From positions 1 to 51,784 of the forward strand of contig VXPQ01000002.1 of the NCBI GenBank assembly GCA_009839485.1: 51,784 nt of DNA. Reading direction: 5' to 3'. Shown here piece by piece: positions 1,347-9,889 of the stretch. How positions within the stretch are numbered: the stretch's first letter is position 1; each line of letters opens with the position of its first letter. The DNA comes from Bacteroidetes bacterium SB0662_bin_6. GTDB taxonomy: Bacteria > Bacteroidota > Rhodothermia > Rhodothermales > VXPQ01. The notes below the pieces were generated by a model. That model was not told the origin of the DNA and made no database searches. It worked only from the letters and a program-made list of their open reading frames with translations. Both the position numbers and the translations under genes were made by a program.

Positions 1347-2180
1347 CTACGTGTTTTTCTCCTGTACTGCCTGGTTGCCGTCTTTCAGAGTACGTACGAA
1401 GCGGCAGATTTCTTCATAGTGTGTTTTGGTGGGCTTCGAACCGGCATCCCACAGCGTTTCCACCTTTTCGATCAGCGCCGACCCGACAATGAACCCGTCG
1501 GTATGGCGGCTCAATCGTACCGCATCCTCATGGGTTCGAATGCCGAATCCGGCCAGCAAGGGGTTTTCACGCACCATGTCGCGCGCCCGCTTCAGGTATG
1601 CTTCCACATGCTCTATGGCGCCGAGCCCCGAGCCGGTCAATCCCGTGATGGATACCGCATATACGAACCCCGTCGCAGCGTTATCGATCTCCCGAATGCG
1701 GTCATCGGGAGTGTTGGGGGCAATCAGGAGCACCGCCGCCAGTCCGGCGGCTGCAGCCTCGCCTGCAAAGGGAAGATGTTCTTCAAGGGGTACGTCCGCG
1801 AGAATCAATCCCTCGATTCCGGCGGTACGCGCGTCTCTGCAAAATGCGGAAATACCGTATTGGCGGATCGGATTGGCGTATCCCATCAGGAGCAGGGGAG
1901 TGTTGCTTTCCGCGCAGAAAGCGGTAGCCGTCCTGAACGTATCCTTCATGCGGACACCGCCTTTCAGGGCTCGTTCGCTCGAGCGCTGGATAGGTAACCC
2001 CTCTGCAAGCGGATCGCTGAAAGGCATGCCAAGCTCGATGAAATCGGCGCCGCCCTGATCCATCGCGCGCAGAATCGGGAGTGTGCTTTCGGGATCGGGA
2101 AAGCCACTGGTCATAAACAGTCCCATGGCCTTCTCACGACGTTGTACGCAGGCCGCCAACCTTTCCTGAAGTCGCTGCAT
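1347..2180 (-). CDS. trpA: Tryptophan synthase alpha subunit
   Basis: This subunit cleaves indole-3-glycerol phosphate to indole and glyceraldehyde 3-phosphate and channels indole to TrpB. The 277-residue product is a typical TIM barrel with the catalytic glutamate in [11 protein letters not shown] and a C-terminal phosphate-binding segment around [10 protein letters not shown] and GFIVGSALI. The residue equivalent to E. coli Asp60, in the motif usually read as LADG, is glutamate here (LAEG), a conservative change of a catalytic acid. The start at 2180 gives MQRLQERL and a 5-bp gap after the trpB stop; a longer frame from 2237 would run into trpB and has no family similarity. It is the last biosynthetic gene of the operon. 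Confidence 0.95.
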
Positions 2181-2185
2181 GGTTT

Positions 2186-3376
2186 TCAGAGGTGCTTTGC
2201 GATCGTACCCATATCCTTGTCGCCGCGCCCGGAGCAATTGACAACCACTACCTCATTGCGCGCCATTCCGCGTATCCCATCCGGCAGCCAGCCTATCGCA
2301 TGTGCGGTCTCCAGCGCCGGAATGATCCCTTCCGTTTTCGACAGCAGTTTTACCCCCTCGATGGCCTGTGCATCCGTTGCGGATGCGTAATGTACGCGGC
2401 CCGTATCCCGCAGCCAGGCATGTTCCGGCCCTACCCCCGGGTAGTCCAGTCCCGCCGAAATGGAGTGCGCGAGTTGCACCTGTCCTTCCTCGTCTTGCAA
2501 CAAATAACTCATGGTTCCATGCAGGATGCCCGGCGAGCCTTGTGTCAGTGTGGCCGCATGTCGTCCGTTCAGTCCTTCTCCTGCAGCCTCCACGCCATAT
2601 AGTCGTACGTGCGTATCCCGCAGGAAGGCATAAAAAAGTCCGATCGCATTCGAGCCTCCGCCCACGCAGGCTACCACTGCATCCGGTGTGGGGCGCCCCT
2701 CCATTTCATCCAATTGCCGTCGGGTTTCGTCCCCGATAACCCGGTGAAAATCACGAACCATCATCGGATAGGGATGCGGGCCTACGACCGAACCGATGAT
2801 ATAGAACGTGTCATGTACGTTGGTTACCCAATCCCGAATGGCTTCGTTGGTGGCGTCTTTCAGGGTACGGCTACCGCTGGATACGGGGCGTACATCGGCG
2901 CCGAGCAGCTGCATGCGCAGCACATTCAGGTGCTGCCGCTCGACATCTTCTTCGCCCATGTAGACGATGCACTGCAGGCCGAATCGTGCACAAACGGTGG
3001 CGGTGGCCACGCCATGCTGTCCCGCGCCTGTCTCTGCGATGATGCGCGTTTTCCCCATAAGGCGCGCCAGCAATATCTGCCCTATCGTATTGTTGATCTT
3101 GTGGGCTCCCGTGTGGCACAGATCTTCCCGTTTCAGATAAATTTTTGGTCCGCCGAGCGCTGCGGTAAGCCGTTTGCAAAAGGTCAGCGGCGTGGGACGC
3201 CCGGCATAGTCTGCGAGCATTGCATTGAGTTCCTGCCGGAAAGCCGGGTTTTTGCGGGCGGCTCCGTATGCTTCACGGAGTTCCTCGATGGCAGGGATAA
3301 GCGTTTCGGGCACAAACACGCCGCCGTACAACCCGAAATGCCCGCGTTCGTCGGGGAGGGGATGCGTTTTTTCCAT
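2186..3376 (-). CDS. trpB: Tryptophan synthase beta subunit
   Basis: This PLP enzyme condenses indole with serine to form tryptophan. The 396-residue product contains the PLP lysine at about residue 93 in [10 protein letters not shown], the glycine-rich phosphate-binding loop GGGSNAIG and the AGRPTPL segment typical of the TrpB1 class. The frame stays open to 3766, but that extension overlaps trpF and has no TrpB similarity. The start at 3376 ([12 protein letters not shown]) matches the usual N-terminus. It follows trpF by 58 bp and precedes trpA by 5 bp, consistent with a coupled alpha/beta complex. Confidence 0.97.
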
Positions 3377-3434
3377 AATGAGTACGGTTCTGTTTGCGCC
3401 GTATGGCGATGCGTGCTGCCGCGCAGCACATGGA

Positions 3435-4124
3435 TCATCCGGTCTCGAGTTCAGAATGTACCGACCGGAATGCCTGCATAAAGGCGTCAATTCTGGAGAA
3501 ATCCTTTTCCCCGGGAGCCGATTCGAGGCCACTTGACACATCCACGGCGAATGGACGGAGCGTACGGATCGCCTCGGCCACATTGCCCGCATGGATGCCC
3601 CCCGCCAGAAAAATGCCGGGGCTTCCCGAGCGGGTGGGCTGTTCAACCGGCTCGCGAGCGCCTCCTGCAGGAGGGCTCGCCACACGCCAGTCGAAAGTCC
3701 GGCCGCTGCCGCCGTACATCTTGTCGCTGTACGCATCCAGCAGGAAATGCGCGGCCACGTCCTCATATGTCCGCATCAGGCGATATAACCCGTCGGAGGT
3801 CATGTCCGGAGCGATGCGAAACGCTTTGATGACAGGGTATTCGATGTCCATTATATCGGACACAGATTCCTTGCCATGGAGCTGCACCAAAGCGAAGCCG
3901 GCTTTTTCGGCGGTCCGGTTGACTACGTCGGCAGGGGTGTTCACGAACACGCCCACCGGCTGCGGTCCATGGATCCATTCAGCGATGTCCCGCACGCGCT
4001 CCGGCGTGATATAGCGCGGGCTGCCGGGATACTGTATGAATCCAAGGTAATCGGCGCCTGCGGCGGCGGCATACCGGGCATCCTCCAGCCGGGTTATGCC
4101 GCATATTTTGAGTTTGGTCGTCAT
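3435..4124 (-). CDS. trpF: Phosphoribosylanthranilate isomerase
   Basis: It catalyses the Amadori rearrangement of phosphoribosylanthranilate in tryptophan synthesis. The 229-residue product starts [11 protein letters not shown], with the catalytic cysteine at residue 8, and carries the catalytic aspartate in HFLLDAYSD and the phosphate-binding [13 protein letters not shown] segment. Between FDWRVA and IFLAGGI there is an extra stretch of roughly 15 residues rich in Pro, Gly and Ser, longer than I expect for the family; it probably forms an extended loop. The start overlaps the trpC stop by 4 bp, which suggests translational coupling. Confidence 0.95.
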
Positions 4125-4915
4125 GCTTTGATTCTTTCCGCTTCGCTCCGGAGTCTTGTCAATGCATTCCCTGGCCGTTCGGACCGCATGAAGGTCTCAC
4201 CAATCAGAAAGGCATCGATTCCGCGTTCGTGTAAAAATCGCAGTTCCGCTCCCGACGTAAGGCCGCTTTCCGACACGCGCACCACGTGTTCCGGAACGTC
4301 CGCAAATACCCGAAGGGAGTGTTCGATATCCACTTCGAAGGTGCGCAGGTCACGGTTATTCACGCCTACGATGCGGGTCTCGTCAAAATCGAGGCGGTCC
4401 AGTTCAGTCGGTTCGTACACCTCTACCAGTGCATCGAGCTCCAGTTCATGTGCTGCCTGCAAAAGGTCCCGAAGGTGCGTTTTGTGAAGTACGGCGGCAA
4501 TGAGCAGTACCGCATCCGCACCGTAAGCCCTCGCTTCGATGAGTTGATAGGTGTCGATAATAAAGTCTTTTCTTAATAGAGGAACAGAAATGGATTGACG
4601 GACAACGGAAAGATCGTCGAGCGAACCCTGAAAATGATGAGGCTCGGTCAGAACGGAAACAGCAACGGCGCCGCCTCCCTCGTATTCCCGGGCAATCTCG
4701 ACCGGTCGAAAGGAATCCCGGATCACACCGCCTGATGGCGAAGCTTTTTTGATCTCGGCGATAATAGAGGGTCCGTTTTTCCGTAGCGCATCTTCCAGAG
4801 AACGGCGATCCCGGTCGAAGCCCGCCATGGCTTCAAGCCGTCCCGTCGGCGCTACAGCTTTCCGTGTGGCCACGACTTCTTGCGTGTCCTCTACGATACG
4901 GTCGAGAATAGTCAT
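4121..4915 (-). CDS. trpC: Indole-3-glycerol phosphate synthase
   Basis: It closes the indole ring from carboxyphenylamino-deoxyribulose phosphate. The 264-residue product is a monofunctional enzyme, not fused to TrpF. Visible family motifs are IAEIKKASPSGG (residues 52-63), LLRKDFI, GVNNRDL and the C-terminal SESGLTSGAEL phosphate-binding region. It overlaps trpD upstream and trpF downstream by 4 bp each, so the three genes form a tightly coupled block. Confidence 0.96.
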   Translation of the reverse strand: MTILDRIVEDTQEVVATRKAVAPTGRLEAMAGFDRDRRSLEDALRKNGPSIIAEIKKASPSGGVIRDSFRPVEIAREYEGGGAVAVSVLTEPHHFQGSLDDLSVVRQSISVPLLRKDFIIDTYQLIEARAYGADAVLLIAAVLHKTHLRDLLQAAHELELDALVEVYEPTELDRLDFDETRIVGVNNRDLRTFEVDIEHSLRVFADVPEHVVRVSESGLTSGAELRFLHERGIDAFLIGETFMRSERPGNALTRLRSEAERIKA

Positions 4916-5946
4916 GGGGCGGGTGCGTTGTGCGAAGCATGAGCCAGCCGCTCGAGCGTGTTCTGCGCCTTTCCCGAATCAATGCTTTCTTCCGCAGCGC
5001 TGCGGCAGGCGGCAAGGTGCTCGAATTTTCCTGAAACCGACAGGGCATGGGCTGCATTGAGCACGACGACATCGCGGCATGGCCCTGGCTCGCCTGCAAG
5101 GATCGCCCGCACGATGCGCGCATTCTCGTCACTGCCGCCGCCTGCAAGCGCATTCCGGGAGCAGCGGGTGAAACCAAGATCTTCGGGACGCAAGAGGCGC
5201 TCCACAGGACCGGTCGTCGCAGGGGTATCCTCCCGCACTTCGAAAGCCCCCGTTTCGTCCGCCAGCGATATCTCGTCCAGTCCATCCCGCGCATGCACGG
5301 CGAGCACATGCCGGGCGCCGAGGCGCTCGAGAATGGCGGCCATGACCTTCGCCGTTTGCTCATCGAAAGCACCGGTCAGCTGGCGGCGTACCCCGGCAGG
5401 GTTGCACAAAGGGCCCAGAATATTGAAGAAGGTGCGTACGCCCAGTTTCCTGCGCACCGGCATTACATGCTTCATCGCGGGGTGGAAGAACGGAGCGAAC
5501 AGGAACGCCATGCCTGCCTTCTCAAAACAGTATTCGACGCCTTCCTTGCCCAGCGCCGTTTTTACACCGAGTGCTTCCAGCACATCCGCCGAGCCGCATT
5601 TCGAGGAAACGGACCGGTTTCCATGTTTGGCTACGGTAACCCCGGCGCCTGCACACACGATAGCAGCGACGGTAGAGATATTGAACGTGTCCGCGCCGTC
5701 TCCACCCGTGCCGCACAGGTCGATGGCGTCCGGATCACCGGTTTCTACCGGGACGGCGAATTCGCGCATGACCTTCGTAAAGGCGACGAGTTCGTCCAGC
5801 GATTCCCCGCGCGCCCTGAGACCCACCAGAAAAGCGGCTGTGCACTCGGGTTCCGATGCGCCCTCCATTAACAGGCGCATTGCTTTCTCGGCCTCTTCGC
5901 TTTGCAGCGTATCTCCGCCGGTCAGAATGTTCAGGTATTTTTGCAT
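4912..5946 (-). CDS. trpD: Anthranilate phosphoribosyltransferase
   Basis: It transfers the phosphoribosyl group of PRPP to anthranilate. The 344-residue product shows the PRPP/Mg-binding loop CGTGGDG at residues 78-84, followed by TFNIST, and KHGNRSVSSKCGSADVLEALG, all diagnostic of TrpD. The length is normal and there is no fused glutamine amidotransferase; that function is encoded by the separate trpG 27 bp upstream. The stop overlaps the trpC start by 4 bp. Confidence 0.97.
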   Translation of the reverse strand: MQKYLNILTGGDTLQSEEAEKAMRLLMEGASEPECTAAFLVGLRARGESLDELVAFTKVMREFAVPVETGDPDAIDLCGTGGDGADTFNISTVAAIVCAGAGVTVAKHGNRSVSSKCGSADVLEALGVKTALGKEGVEYCFEKAGMAFLFAPFFHPAMKHVMPVRRKLGVRTFFNILGPLCNPAGVRRQLTGAFDEQTAKVMAAILERLGARHVLAVHARDGLDEISLADETGAFEVREDTPATTGPVERLLRPEDLGFTRCSRNALAGGGSDENARIVRAILAGEPGPCRDVVVLNAAHALSVSGKFEHLAACRSAAEESIDSGKAQNTLERLAHASHNAPAP

Positions 5947-5973
5947 GGTTACGCGTGAAAGAGCCGGATCGGG

Positions 5974-6588
5974 TCAGGAAATTGCCGCCGGGGTCCCCGT
6001 TGTACTATCTACGGTGCTGCCCAGCACCTCTTCCAGCCAGTTGTTGACGATCCGGGGCCCTTCTTTCGTCAGCACGCTTTCCGGGTGAAACTGGATGCCT
6101 TCAACCGGATGCTCCCGGTGCCGCAGGCCCATGACGACGCCGTCTTTCGTTTCCGCCGATATATCCAGGCAGGCAGGTACGCTGGCACGGTCCACCACGA
6201 GAGAATGATACCGCGTGGCCGTGAATGGATTGCTGACGTTCCGGAACACGCCGTGGCCGTCGTGCGCTATTTCGCTCGTTTTTCCATGCATCAGCGTGGG
6301 GGCATAGCCGATGCGTCCACCGTATACCTCGCCGATCGCCTGGTGCCCGAGGCATACGCCGAGGATCGGCACCGAGGCCCCCAATGCGCTTACGAGTTCT
6401 TCCGTCACGCCTGCATCGGCAGGACGTCCCGGTCCCGGCGAAATGAGGATACCTCTCGGCGCCAGGTCACGGACAGCGTCCACATCGAGTACGTCGTTTC
6501 GCACCACCTCGAGGTCGCTCGTGCGGCGCCCCACAAGGTGTACGAGGTTGTACGTGAACGAATCATAGTTGTCGATGACGAGAATCAT
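5974..6588 (-). CDS. trpG: Anthranilate synthase glutamine amidotransferase subunit
   Basis: This class I glutamine amidotransferase supplies ammonia to TrpE. The 204-residue product starts MILVIDNYDSFTYNL, has the oxyanion segment SPGPGRP, the catalytic cysteine at about residue 79 in GVCLGHQAIGE and the catalytic His-Glu pair in FHPESVLT. The same family also serves para-aminobenzoate synthesis (PabA), and one copy often serves both pathways. Its position inside the trp operon supports TrpG as the main role. Its start overlaps the trpS stop by 4 bp. Confidence 0.93.
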   Translation of the reverse strand: MILVIDNYDSFTYNLVHLVGRRTSDLEVVRNDVLDVDAVRDLAPRGILISPGPGRPADAGVTEELVSALGASVPILGVCLGHQAIGEVYGGRIGYAPTLMHGKTSEIAHDGHGVFRNVSNPFTATRYHSLVVDRASVPACLDISAETKDGVVMGLRHREHPVEGIQFHPESVLTKEGPRIVNNWLEEVLGSTVDSTTGTPAAIS

Positions 6589-7637
6589 GGCGCTGTCTTA
6601 TAGGTGGTAATCAGTCCAACGCGCTCTCGTACGCGTTCCATGTATTCACCGGCCCGTTCCCGGGCCTTGCGACCCCCTTCGCGCAATATGTCGAACACAT
6701 CGTCCGGACGCCGGGCCAGTTCCTTGCGTCGGATACGCGCTTCCGCAAAATGCTCGTCGATAAGGGTGAGCAATTCCTTTTTCGCATGCCCGTATCCGAA
6801 TCCTCCCGCACGGTAGGCCTCTGCAATACGTTCCCGCGTTTCCTCGTCGGCGAACAGCCGGATGAGCATAAACACATTGTCGCGCTCCGGATCTTTCGGC
6901 GCTTCGAGCGGCGTCGAATCGGTCACGATACTCATCACTTTTTTCTTCAGGGCCTTTCCTTCTTCGAAGATGCCAATCGCGTTTTCGTAACTCTTGGACA
7001 TTTTCCGGCCGTCCAGCCCGGGCACGACCGCCACGTCGGAAAGGATGTAGGGTTCGGGTACGGGAAAGACCGGATCGTCCTCCGGGCAATACGTACGATT
7101 GAACCGTTCCGCCAGGACCCGCGTCATTTCGATATGTTGTTTCTGATCCGCACCCACCGGCACCAGCGTGCCCCCGTAGATCAGGATGTCCGCGGCCTGC
7201 AGCACGGGATAGGTAAACAGACCCGCATTTGCAGGTAGACCCTGAGCCACCTTGTCCTTGTAGGCCACCCCTTTCTCCAGTTGGGATACCGTGGCCAGGT
7301 TGTTGAAAATCCATGCCAGTTCGGTGACTTCCGGCACGTCACTCTGCATGAAGAGGCATGCGGCCCGAGGGTTGAATCCAAGGGCGAGGTAGTCGAGCGC
7401 TACATCCAGGGTATAGCGCCTCAGTTTGTCCCGGTCCCGGAGCGTCGTCAGTGTGTGGTAGTTGACTATAAAGTAGTATGCCTCATGTTTTTCATGAAGC
7501 TGGATGTGTTGCCGGAGCGCCCCGAAATAATTCCCGAGATGCAATGCTCCCGACGGTTGAATGCCGGAAACGATCACTTCGTGGTCTTTGCGGAGAGCAG
7601 GGGAGGGCATGGATGTATCGATACGTTCGGAAGACAT
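6585..7637 (-). CDS. trpS: Tryptophanyl-tRNA synthetase
   Basis: This class I synthetase charges tRNA-Trp. The 350-residue product has the HIGH-type signature as HLGN at about residues 33-36 within IQPSGALHLGNYFGA and a KMSKS loop in GRKMSKSYENAIG, with the fold and length of bacterial TrpRS. The start is uncertain: Met1 at 7637 and Met10 at 7610 are both possible and neither has a good Shine-Dalgarno sequence. It lies inside the trp operon, 33 bp after the small helical gene and overlapping trpG by 4 bp. Its expression should therefore respond to the attenuator upstream of trpE, which itself senses charged tRNA-Trp. Confidence 0.96.
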   Translation of the reverse strand: MSSERIDTSMPSPALRKDHEVIVSGIQPSGALHLGNYFGALRQHIQLHEKHEAYYFIVNYHTLTTLRDRDKLRRYTLDVALDYLALGFNPRAACLFMQSDVPEVTELAWIFNNLATVSQLEKGVAYKDKVAQGLPANAGLFTYPVLQAADILIYGGTLVPVGADQKQHIEMTRVLAERFNRTYCPEDDPVFPVPEPYILSDVAVVPGLDGRKMSKSYENAIGIFEEGKALKKKVMSIVTDSTPLEAPKDPERDNVFMLIRLFADEETRERIAEAYRAGGFGYGHAKKELLTLIDEHFAEARIRRKELARRPDDVFDILREGGRKARERAGEYMERVRERVGLITTYKTAP

Positions 7638-7670: not shown

Positions 7671-8135
7671 TCAGCGATGCTGCAAGACCAGTTTTCGCAC
7701 GTACTCCAGCCGGACACGGGTGTTTTTCAGGACCACCTCGAGGATGGCCCGTGTGCGCATCTGGTGTTCCATGTCAAGTTCGGCATGGAGCAGTTTCTCG
7801 AAGTCGCGCTCCATATTTCTGAGCTCGGTCACGATGTCGCTGTCACATTTTCCGAGGTCAAAATCCTCCGGTTCCATCTCTGTGCCGTTGAACGGTACGC
7901 CTCCCGCACTGAGTACCACTTCACTCAGTTTTCCTACATCCATGCGGGCGGTCCTTTGGAGGGTGGACAATTGTTCGGCAGCATCCCGGTCTTCAAGGGC
8001 CCGCACCGCATATTCATGCGAATGATTCAGTGCGCAATGAGAACGGATGACGGGGTTCAACCGTCCGGCGGTTTCTTCGCGAGAGAGGGTTTTCCCCGCC
8101 CAGCCCTTGTTCAGCAAAAGGTCTTTTATTCTCAT
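7671..8135 (-). CDS. Small helical protein of unknown function in trp operon
   Basis: I do not recognise this 154-residue protein. It has no signal peptide or membrane segment and is predicted by eye to be almost entirely alpha-helical and highly charged. Several His, Glu and Asp residues are spaced along the helices (RSHCALNHSHEYAVRALEDRD, then MEPEDFDLGKCDSDI, then LLHAELDMEHQMRTRAI), a pattern that could suit a four-helix bundle of ferritin-like type, but this is only a guess. The start at 8135 gives MRIKDLLLNKGW and a 46-bp gap after trpE; the frame extends to 8204 but would overlap trpE. It lies between trpE and trpS on the same strand, so it should be co-transcribed with the tryptophan genes. 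Confidence 0.75.
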   Translation of the reverse strand: MRIKDLLLNKGWAGKTLSREETAGRLNPVIRSHCALNHSHEYAVRALEDRDAAEQLSTLQRTARMDVGKLSEVVLSAGGVPFNGTEMEPEDFDLGKCDSDIVTELRNMERDFEKLLHAELDMEHQMRTRAILEVVLKNTRVRLEYVRKLVLQHR

Positions 8136-8181
8136 GACACAAGGCAAATAGCCAGTGATACAGATATACGATGCACGGCGT

Positions 8182-9666
8182 TCACAGCAATCCCTCGGAG
8201 GCAAGAAGGATCGCTTCTTTCAGCGCGCGCGCTTTGTTGACCGTTTCCTCGAATTCGCTGGCCGGCCTGCTGTCTGCGACCAGACCGCATCCTGCCTGCA
8301 CGTAGACCCGATCTTTTTGAACGAGCATGGTTCGGATGGCGATGCAGGTGTCCATGTTACCCGAATAATCCACATGGCCGACCGCGCCGGCATAGGCGCC
8401 TCTTGCGGACGGTTCGAGTTCGTCAATGATTTCCATGGCGCGCACCTTGGGCGCTCCACTTACGGTGCCCGCCGGGAAACAGGCCGCGAGGACATCCATC
8501 GCTCCTTTTCTGCGATCCAGTTCGCCGGATACCGATGACACGATATGCATGACATGTGAATACCGTTCCACATATGCGTACCTGTCTACTTTGACGGAAC
8601 CGTGCCGGCAGACCCGTCCCAGGTCGTTCCGGCCAAGGTCCACAAGCATCAGGTGTTCGGCACGCTCCTTGGGATCGGCGAGCAGATCTGCCTCGAGTCG
8701 CCGGTCTTCTTCTTCCGTGGCGCCCCGGGGCCGTGTGCCTGCGATGGGCAACACCTCCACCGTGTCGCCCTCGATACGTACAAGCACTTCGGGGGAGGAG
8801 CCGATCAGCGAAAAATCGTCGAAATCGAGGTAGAACAGGTACGGGGACGGATTCACCTGCCGCAGCGCGCGATACAGGTTGATGCGATCCCCCTCGTACG
8901 GCATGGAGAAACGTTGCGACAGCACGGCCTGGAAGATATCTCCCTCGTAGATATATCGCTTGACCTTTTCAACAGCCTTTTCGAACTCTGTTCGCTCGAA
9001 ATTGGAGTCCATATTTTCCTGCGTAATCCGTATGGATTCCGGTTTTGACGGGACGGCTTCCGAGAGCTCCGCCTCCAGGGCGTCGATGCGTCCGGATGCT
9101 TTGAACCAGGCTTCGGCAGGATCGTCCCCCTCATCTACGAATGCGCAGGAGATCAGAACGAGTTGGCGCTTTACGTGATCGAAGGCGACCAGCGTATCGT
9201 AAAAACACCAGATGGCGTCCGGAATGTGCAGGTCATCCTGCGGCGCATTGGGCAGGCGTTCCACGAGGCGTACTGTGTCGTAGCCAAGATATCCCACCGC
9301 GCCGGTTGCAATCTTGGGGAGGTCACTTGTTCGGACTTCCGTATACCGGTCCATTTCCCGTTGCATCACCTCGAAAATATTTCCCTCCGGTTCGCGGACG
9401 GTTCCATTGGCGTCTTCGGTGATCGTACGCGGACCAAAAGCGCGCACAATGCGGAACGGGTTTTTTCCGAGGAATGAGTAGCGTGCCAGATTCTCGCCGC
9501 CTTCGACGCTTTCCAGCAGAAAACAATACCGGCTTCCTTCGCGGAATGTGAGGAAAGCCGAGACGGGCGTCACAAGGTCGGCGCTGAGGCGCCGGCAGAT
9601 CGGCACGACCAGATTGCCCTTGTCCCGATGGGCGTCAATAAGGCGTATGAAATCTTCAAGCAGCAT
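8182..9666 (-). CDS. trpE: Anthranilate synthase component I
   Basis: It makes anthranilate from chorismate with ammonia supplied by TrpG. The 494-residue product carries the feedback-site motif LLES at residues 50-53, suggesting inhibition by tryptophan, and the catalytic chorismate-binding block: YIYEGDIFQAVLSQRF, SSPEVLVR, IAGTRPRGA, LVDLGRNDLGRV, FPAGTVSGAPK and GGVDYSG-like GHVDYSGNMD. The reading frame is open to 9699, but that ATG lies inside the attenuator terminator hairpin, so the start at 9666 (MLLEDFIRL) is chosen. It is the first structural gene of the operon, directly downstream of the attenuator. Confidence 0.96.
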   Translation of the reverse strand: MLLEDFIRLIDAHRDKGNLVVPICRRLSADLVTPVSAFLTFREGSRYCFLLESVEGGENLARYSFLGKNPFRIVRAFGPRTITEDANGTVREPEGNIFEVMQREMDRYTEVRTSDLPKIATGAVGYLGYDTVRLVERLPNAPQDDLHIPDAIWCFYDTLVAFDHVKRQLVLISCAFVDEGDDPAEAWFKASGRIDALEAELSEAVPSKPESIRITQENMDSNFERTEFEKAVEKVKRYIYEGDIFQAVLSQRFSMPYEGDRINLYRALRQVNPSPYLFYLDFDDFSLIGSSPEVLVRIEGDTVEVLPIAGTRPRGATEEEDRRLEADLLADPKERAEHLMLVDLGRNDLGRVCRHGSVKVDRYAYVERYSHVMHIVSSVSGELDRRKGAMDVLAACFPAGTVSGAPKVRAMEIIDELEPSARGAYAGAVGHVDYSGNMDTCIAIRTMLVQKDRVYVQAGCGLVADSRPASEFEETVNKARALKEAILLASEGLL

Positions 9667-9687: not shown

Positions 9688-9720
9688 AAAAAAACCCACT
9701 GTTCACAGGGGAACAGTGGG
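9688..9720 (-). terminator. trp attenuator terminator hairpin
   Basis: Read on the minus strand, CCCACTGTTC (9720-9711) and GAACAGTGGG (9704-9695) form a perfect 10-bp stem with a 6-nt loop, followed at once by seven T residues (9694-9688). This is a complete intrinsic terminator placed between the leader peptide and trpE. A second small hairpin, GTGCGG/CCGCAC around a 4-nt loop (9737-9722), abuts it on the upstream side. Confidence 0.93.
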
Positions 9721-9787
9721 GGTGCGGCCCGCCGCACTACTACATGGCGGCAATTATGGCGTACACGCAAGGCGGATCCCACTGTCC
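9711..9787 (-). promoter_or_regulatory. trp antiterminator pairing region
   Basis: The RNA segment GGACAGUGGG (9787-9778) repeats the 3' arm of the terminator and can pair with the terminator 5' arm (9720-9711) over about 10 bp, with one G-U pair. The two pairings are mutually exclusive, which is the defining property of an antiterminator. The segment begins 11-12 nt after the second Trp codon of the leader, so a ribosome stalled on the Trp codons would leave it free. The protecting segment 1 is not uniquely identifiable by eye. Confidence 0.8.
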
Positions 9788-9852
9788 GGCGACCTGCGCC
9801 ACCAGCCGCCGGCATGAGTGTGGATGCTGCTATGTACACATTGTTCAGTCAT
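9754..9852 (-). CDS. trpL: trp operon leader peptide
   Basis: This 32-residue open reading frame runs from ATG at 9852 to TAA at 9756-9754. Codons 17 and 18 are tandem tryptophan codons (9804-9799), and the peptide has no other Trp. It starts MTEQCVHSS and ends RLACTP, has no resemblance to a domain, and lies just before mutually exclusive antiterminator and terminator structures and trpE. Its role is expected to be sensing of charged tRNA-Trp by ribosome stalling, not a function of the peptide itself. No Shine-Dalgarno sequence precedes it. The stop codon lies beyond the antiterminator segment, unlike the E. coli layout where the stop lies between segments 1 and 2. Confidence 0.85.
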   Translation of the reverse strand: MTEQCVHSSIHTHAGGWWRRSPDSGIRLACTP

Positions 9853-9860
9853 AATCGCCC

Positions 9861-9889
9861 AAGATATACCTTGAACCAGTGAAAAGCAA
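9861..9889 (-). promoter_or_regulatory. Probable trp operon promoter
   Basis: On the minus strand TTGCTT (9889-9884) is followed after 17 bp by TATCTT (9866-9861). Transcription would begin near 9854, only about 2 nt before the leader-peptide ATG, so the leader would be almost leaderless. This is a pattern match to the housekeeping-sigma consensus and is not proven; the lineage-specific TAnnTTTG element is only partly matched. Confidence 0.5.

Follow-up and report, generated by a model that had tools for sequence, protein, structure and literature searches.

How does a bacterium of the Bacteroidota match expression of its tryptophan genes to the supply of charged tRNA-Trp? The question is posed by the trp operon of Bacteroidetes bacterium SB0662_bin_6 (class Rhodothermia, order Rhodothermales; genome about 2.9 Mb), whose trpE is preceded by a short ORF with two adjacent tryptophan codons and by an intrinsic terminator. 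The element lies on the minus strand of contig VXPQ01000002.1, in a stretch of 51,784 nucleotides that is called the window here. A preliminary description of this DNA had read the arrangement as a ribosome-mediated trp attenuator, a reading that is now supported by conservation, by the spacing of the parts and by co-variation of the two antiterminator strands; on this sequence evidence, the element very probably attenuates transcription of the trp operon by way of a translating ribosome. The best-known attenuation mechanism would thereby be placed in Bacteroidota, a phylum in which control of amino-acid operons at the RNA level has been little described.

Anatomy of the leader region

The leader ORF begins with an ATG at 9852-9850, continues through 32 sense codons (MTEQCVHSSIHTHAGGWWRRSPDSGIRLACTP) and ends at a TAA stop at 9756-9754, with its tandem Trp codons exactly where they had been described, at 9804-9799. 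Segment 2 (DNA GGACAGTGGG, 9787-9778) begins 11 nt past the second of these codons, in keeping with the 11-12 nt first reported. The terminator, which had been called perfect and followed by seven U, consists of CCCACTGTTC (9720-9711), the loop CCCTGT and GAACAGTGGG (9704-9695), a 10-bp stem, with T7 at 9694-9688; the trpE ATG stands downstream of this tract, at 9666. The proposal of an exclusive alternative fold also holds, segment 2 being able to pair with the 5' arm of the terminator, segment 3, in a helix of 10 bp with one G-U pair among them. The parts of the leader are as follows.

9754..9852, minus strand: leader peptide ORF, 32 codons plus TAA (from the sequence; kept in two genomes of the same genus, G003 and G004)
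9799..9804, minus strand: tandem Trp control codons W17 and W18 (from the sequence; clustered Trp codons conserved)
9786..9812, minus strand: predicted 1:2 (anti-antiterminator) hairpin, CCGGCGGCU...GGUCGCCGG (from RNA folds; takes in the Trp codons and the opening bases of segment 2)
9778..9787, minus strand: segment 2, the antiterminator strand, GGACAGUGGG (forms 10 bp with segment 3 when the RNA is folded as left by a stalled ribosome; the two segments co-vary between families)
9711..9720, minus strand: segment 3, common to antiterminator and terminator (from the sequence)
9695..9704, minus strand: segment 4, the terminator's 3' arm (pairs perfectly with segment 3 over 10 bp)
9688..9694, minus strand: U7 tract of the terminator (from the sequence)

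Folding of the leader RNA

The leader RNA folds to -78.4 kcal/mol, as against -63.6 kcal/mol for dinucleotide shuffles (z -3.06; 0 of 200 shuffles were as stable), and a segment 2 as good for this terminator arose in none of 100 shuffled leaders. Folding of the two states gave the two structures expected of an attenuator: the RNA that a ribosome stalled at W18 would leave exposed, taken before segment 4 exists, forms the 10-bp 2:3 helix (-31.8 kcal/mol), and in the whole leader with segment 4 included the 3:4 terminator fold is favoured. Because the full-length RNA prefers the terminator, the choice between the folds would have to be kinetic, as it is in the classical attenuation model (PMC1183508).

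Conservation in the order, the class and the phylum

The region upstream of trpE was read in 50 genomes of the order with a readable trpE, a genome being counted as positive if its leader ORF had two or more Trp codons close together and was followed by an intrinsic terminator. Such an element precedes trpE in 36 of these 50 relatives, representing 13 of 14 families; the remaining genomes comprise six with trpE behind an MscS-like gene, five of family f15 that have no terminator, and three of family f4 with one Trp codon or an unclear reading. Elsewhere in the class (families f16-f18) a Trp-cluster leader lies upstream of trpE in 23 of 24 genomes, and among Bacteroidota sampled outside the class in 37 of 53, nearly all of the leaders in these two groups being accompanied by a terminator (G074 and G065 gave none). 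No Trp leader was seen in the sampled Bacteroidota of families f19, f22, f25, f32, f38, f39 and f41. In the relatives, the region thus keeps the clustered Trp codons and the alternative stems on which the preliminary description had built its case, and the trp attenuator appears, from these sequences, to be phylum-wide in Bacteroidota, with apparent losses. As a DNA query within the genus, the window leader found true matches in G003 and G004 only.

The departures from the common pattern are of several kinds. In two genomes of the window's own genus (G001 and G002; loci L006 and L005) trpE comes directly after a gene for an MscS-like channel (identified by eye, from the C-terminus), with neither leader nor terminator between them, and the same arrangement is found in G023, G039, G041 and G047 of families f2 and f5; judged by sequence, attenuation has apparently been lost repeatedly through rearrangement. 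Five of the six genomes of family f15 (L014, L015, L016, L018 and L019) have no terminator before trpE, and two terminator-less members, G019 and G044, keep a short Trp ORF (WTW or WW), a state that is possibly a decayed or a translational form of the element. Family f4 (L020, L023 and L028) has a terminator before trpE and at most one usable Trp codon (MVKHYISxVVNWQ...), and its leader stop precedes segment 2. Further afield, in Bacteroidota of family f24 (G086, G174, G126 and others; L170-L187), trpE is preceded by leaders with TWAWFWF, WFWWW or WWWW; the terminator core differs there (ACCCTTCT...), and the promoter boxes lie at a distance of 12-17 nt from the ATG. Stop position, Trp codon number and the presence or loss of the terminator are thus on offer as natural variants on the scale of a phylum.

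Spacing and co-variation of the segments

Of 38 class leaders, 34 have a segment 2 that starts 9-18 nt past the final Trp codon; in E. coli trpL, measured in the same way, it starts at 14 nt. From ribosome footprints, a ribosome that has stalled at the control codon should have its leading edge at about that spacing.

Co-variation of the stems was assessed between families, by comparing the best duplex that the region downstream of the Trp codons forms with its own segment 3 and with the segment 3 of other families. Column-based pair counting was replaced by this cross-family test because, when the 3' halves were aligned with MAFFT, segment 2 was wrongly placed from one family to another. Own and foreign pairs were given an identical search space, so that an excess of own pairing cannot arise from the picking of complementary stretches. 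A leader's own segment 3 pairs better than foreign ones (family-level Wilcoxon p = 0.007), and in a permutation with one representative per family the difference reached p = 5e-5, the minimum possible with 20,000 permutations, in a set where G055 gave no usable region and the segment 3 window of G038 was poorly set. Segments 2 and 3 accordingly co-vary between families.

Alternative readings of the locus

Two other accounts of the locus deserve to be weighed against attenuation. On one, the hairpin would terminate transcription in the ordinary intrinsic way and the Trp codons would be there by chance, trpE being expressed by constitutive partial readthrough or from another promoter. Two adjacent Trp codons do occur in 5 of the 168 short ATG ORFs of the window, so that WW in a short ORF, taken alone, is poor evidence, and some relatives have trpE without the element. 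The case rests instead on the combination of features, on position and on conservation: clustered Trp codons and a terminator recur in the same place in 13 families of the order and beyond, the distance from Trp codons to segment 2 is fixed, and segments 2 and 3 co-vary, all of which make coincidence highly improbable.

Control by a bound tRNA or protein (T-box or TRAP-like) in place of a translating ribosome is known for trp genes in other bacteria. At this locus, however, the T-box covariance model found no match in the window leader, nor did any other Rfam family, and inspection of the leader by eye showed no run of (G/U)AG repeats; such control would moreover explain neither the Trp-rich ORF nor its distance from segment 2. 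We regard it as exceedingly unlikely, and retain attenuation by a translating ribosome as the reading of the element.

How segment 2 might be masked when tryptophan is plentiful

The leader stop codon lies 21 nt 3' of segment 2, which the preliminary description had contrasted with E. coli, finding it unclear how segment 2 is masked when tryptophan is plentiful. The contrast stands with respect to trpL but not to thrL, and a stop beyond segment 2 is also the norm in the class. The masking puzzle is largely explained, either by cover from the ribosome or by an upstream hairpin re-forming behind it. Most class leaders have 1-24 nt between segment 2 and the stop, many of them 1-15 nt, and if a trailing ribosome footprint of 18 nt is assumed, a ribosome on the stop codon would in most families still cover segment 2, wholly or partly, with its rear half. 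By most measures this distance is 20-22 nt in the genus of the window, more than the assumed 18 nt, so that segment 2 would be just free. Here, 0.7-0.8 of segment 2 is predicted to be paired with upstream RNA, mainly in the hairpin at 9812-9786 that holds the Trp codons. This 1:2 hairpin is by itself not stronger than shuffles in the window (z -0.32), and across 15 families its combined score is a Stouffer z of -2.8; as a modelled structure it is plausible and weakly supported, with modest support across families.

The same attenuator might therefore be masked in another way, the rear half of the terminating ribosome holding segment 2 with no 1:2 hairpin involved. The many class members whose segment 2 ends within the footprint of a terminating ribosome, the similar layout of E. 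coli thrL and a hairpin weakly better than shuffles would all suit this account, and the genus-wide gap and the predicted upstream pairing do not. Nor do the leaders whose stop precedes segment 2 or falls inside it (G129, G191, f17 and f4), from which it also follows that stop position evolves freely. On balance, masking by the ribosome alone seems rather unlikely, and in the model below the hairpin is kept for this genome.

Predicted promoter and near-leaderless start

Upstream of the leader ORF a promoter can be predicted that would place the start of transcription almost at the ATG.

9887..9889, minus strand: predicted -33 element TTG of the leader promoter (23 nt before TATCTTGG; TTG-N20/21-TA stands before most class leaders)
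9859..9866, minus strand: predicted -7 element TATCTTGG (its TA begins 14 nt before the leader ATG; Bacteroidota sigma-A consensus TAnnTTTG)
9853..9854, minus strand: predicted 5' UTR of about 2 nt, giving a near-leaderless mRNA (from promoter position)

Most leaders of the class share the pattern TTG-N20/21-TAnnTT, with the TA 11-17 nt ahead of their start codon. TAnnTT lies within 24 nt of the start in 28 of 38 leaders of the order-level set, compared with 1.9% of background windows, and most leaders that lack it have a related TAnnnT box in the same place. Since the consensus TAnnTTTG sits at -12 to -5 in Flavobacterium psychrophilum (PMC9723704), the position of the box predicts a leader 5' UTR of 0-4 nt in most members of the class, and of 2 nt in the window. 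5' UTRs so short are rare in Bacteroidota: about 3.7% are below 10 nt in Bacteroides thetaiotaomicron (PMC7366714), and 5.5% are leaderless in F. psychrophilum (PMC9723704). A near-leaderless leader would nonetheless not be unprecedented, since the trpL mRNA of Sinorhizobium meliloti begins at its ATG (PMC7298713) and the ilvBNC leader peptide of Corynebacterium glutamicum is likewise leaderless (PMC11857589).

A tryptophanyl-tRNA synthetase within the operon

The attenuator is followed by a complete trp operon in the order trpE-hyp-trpS-trpG-D-C-F-B-A.

8182..9666, minus strand: trpE, the first structural gene (Pfam Anth_synt_I_N and Chorismate_bind)
7671..8138, minus strand: conserved hypothetical protein of ~155 aa in the trpE/trpS interval (no Pfam match; adjoins trpE in most loci of the order)
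6585..7637, minus strand: trpS (Pfam tRNA-synt_1b; the only tryptophanyl-tRNA synthetase found in the genome)
1347..6588, minus strand: trpG, trpD, trpC, trpF, trpB and trpA (trpG-D-C-F by Pfam; trpB and trpA read from ORFs)

The placement of trpS between trpE and trpG extends across the class, and in almost every class locus examined the gene is found 3' of trpE; in two genomes of family f4 (G008 and G022) it is on another contig. A single TrpS gene was found per genome, in all 24 genomes with a match. With the only TrpS found encoded in the operon, the switch would control the maker of its own signal: the attenuator would govern the enzyme that charges the tRNA to which it responds. The question thus raised is how the only TrpS stays expressed when it is located behind a terminator that should fire at plentiful tryptophan. 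The hypothetical protein encoded between trpE and trpS is conserved in most of the order, at 34-51% identity beyond the genus, and gave no match in Balneolales-like loci.

Proposed mechanism

The transcript would begin some 2 nt ahead of the leader AUG, with the first ribosome probably trailing RNA polymerase closely. When charged tRNA-Trp is scarce, this ribosome would stall at W17-W18 and open the 1:2 hairpin, its front edge stopping just short of segment 2, which could then pair with segment 3 as the latter emerges; the 2:3 pairing would block the terminator and allow trpE-trpS-trpGDCFBA to be transcribed. When tryptophan is plentiful, the ribosome would read through segment 2 as far as the stop codon, hiding segment 2 beneath itself at first; in this genome, segment 2 would afterwards refold into the 1:2 hairpin behind the ribosome. 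With segment 2 so masked, segment 3 would pair with segment 4 and transcription would end at the U tract. The fuller proposal, that of a trp attenuator inherited throughout the phylum which in Rhodothermia combines a near-leaderless start, a hairpin refolding behind the ribosome that has passed and control of the only TrpS, is a tentative one, and we put it forward as possible rather than probable.

Relation to known attenuation systems

Rfam gave no match to the window leader even at E<=10, RF00513 (Trp_leader) included, although in three relatives RF00513, out of 4227 families, scored a sub-threshold 24-26 bits exactly at the leader (gathering threshold 41). Judged by its sequence, the element has the testable defining features of classical trp attenuators and is not a scoring member of RF00513. 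It resembles E. coli trpL in its short ORF with tandem Trp codons, its mutually exclusive 2:3 and 3:4 pairings and its U-tract terminator before trpE, and differs in having 32 codons rather than 14 and a stop 21 nt 3' of segment 2 rather than 5' of it; to our knowledge, the E. coli trp operon has no trpS. E. coli thrL is closer in one respect, its segment 2 (GGTGCGGGC) lying within the leader ORF and its stop after segment 2, but the codons are those of Thr and Ile and the stop follows segment 2 directly, not at 21 nt. The trpL-trpE(G) leader of S. meliloti shares consecutive Trp codons and a leaderless leader mRNA (PMC7298713), in an alphaproteobacterium and with a 14-aa peptide, whereas leaderlessness is a prediction (~2 nt) in the window.

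Outside Proteobacteria, classical attenuators are found in the trp, trpS and ilvBNC leaders of Actinobacteria (Corynebacterium and Streptomyces), where some control trpS (PMC1262725); actinobacterial trpS has an attenuator of its own, whereas the only trpS found in the genome of the window sits within the trp operon. The ilvB locus of that genome showed no obvious leader attenuator; nor did hisG, which is located at the end of a contig, or pheA and thrA, each read from within an upstream reading frame. A 2010 study considered that leader-peptide systems had not been shown outside Proteobacteria and Actinobacteria, except for its own firmicute hisS case (PMC2965389). In the open literature searched there was no direct report of trp attenuation in Rhodothermus, Salinibacter, Flavobacterium or Bacteroidetes; Lopatovskaya et al. 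2010 and Vitreschak et al. 2004, which fell outside that scope, may list cases. Closest in lineage, a 2021 transcriptome of F. psychrophilum reported strong clues that operons for amino-acid biosynthesis have leader-peptide attenuation ahead of them (PMC9723704), candidates of the same phylum and mechanism class, in a different class of Bacteroidota and with trp unnamed in the main text. The preliminary suggestion that this element extends the known range of trp attenuation therefore stands insofar as no earlier report was found, and needs amending insofar as the element is spread across Bacteroidota and the F. psychrophilum hints are in print. What the Rhodothermia leaders add is a mechanism of known type extended in its range, not a new kind of system.
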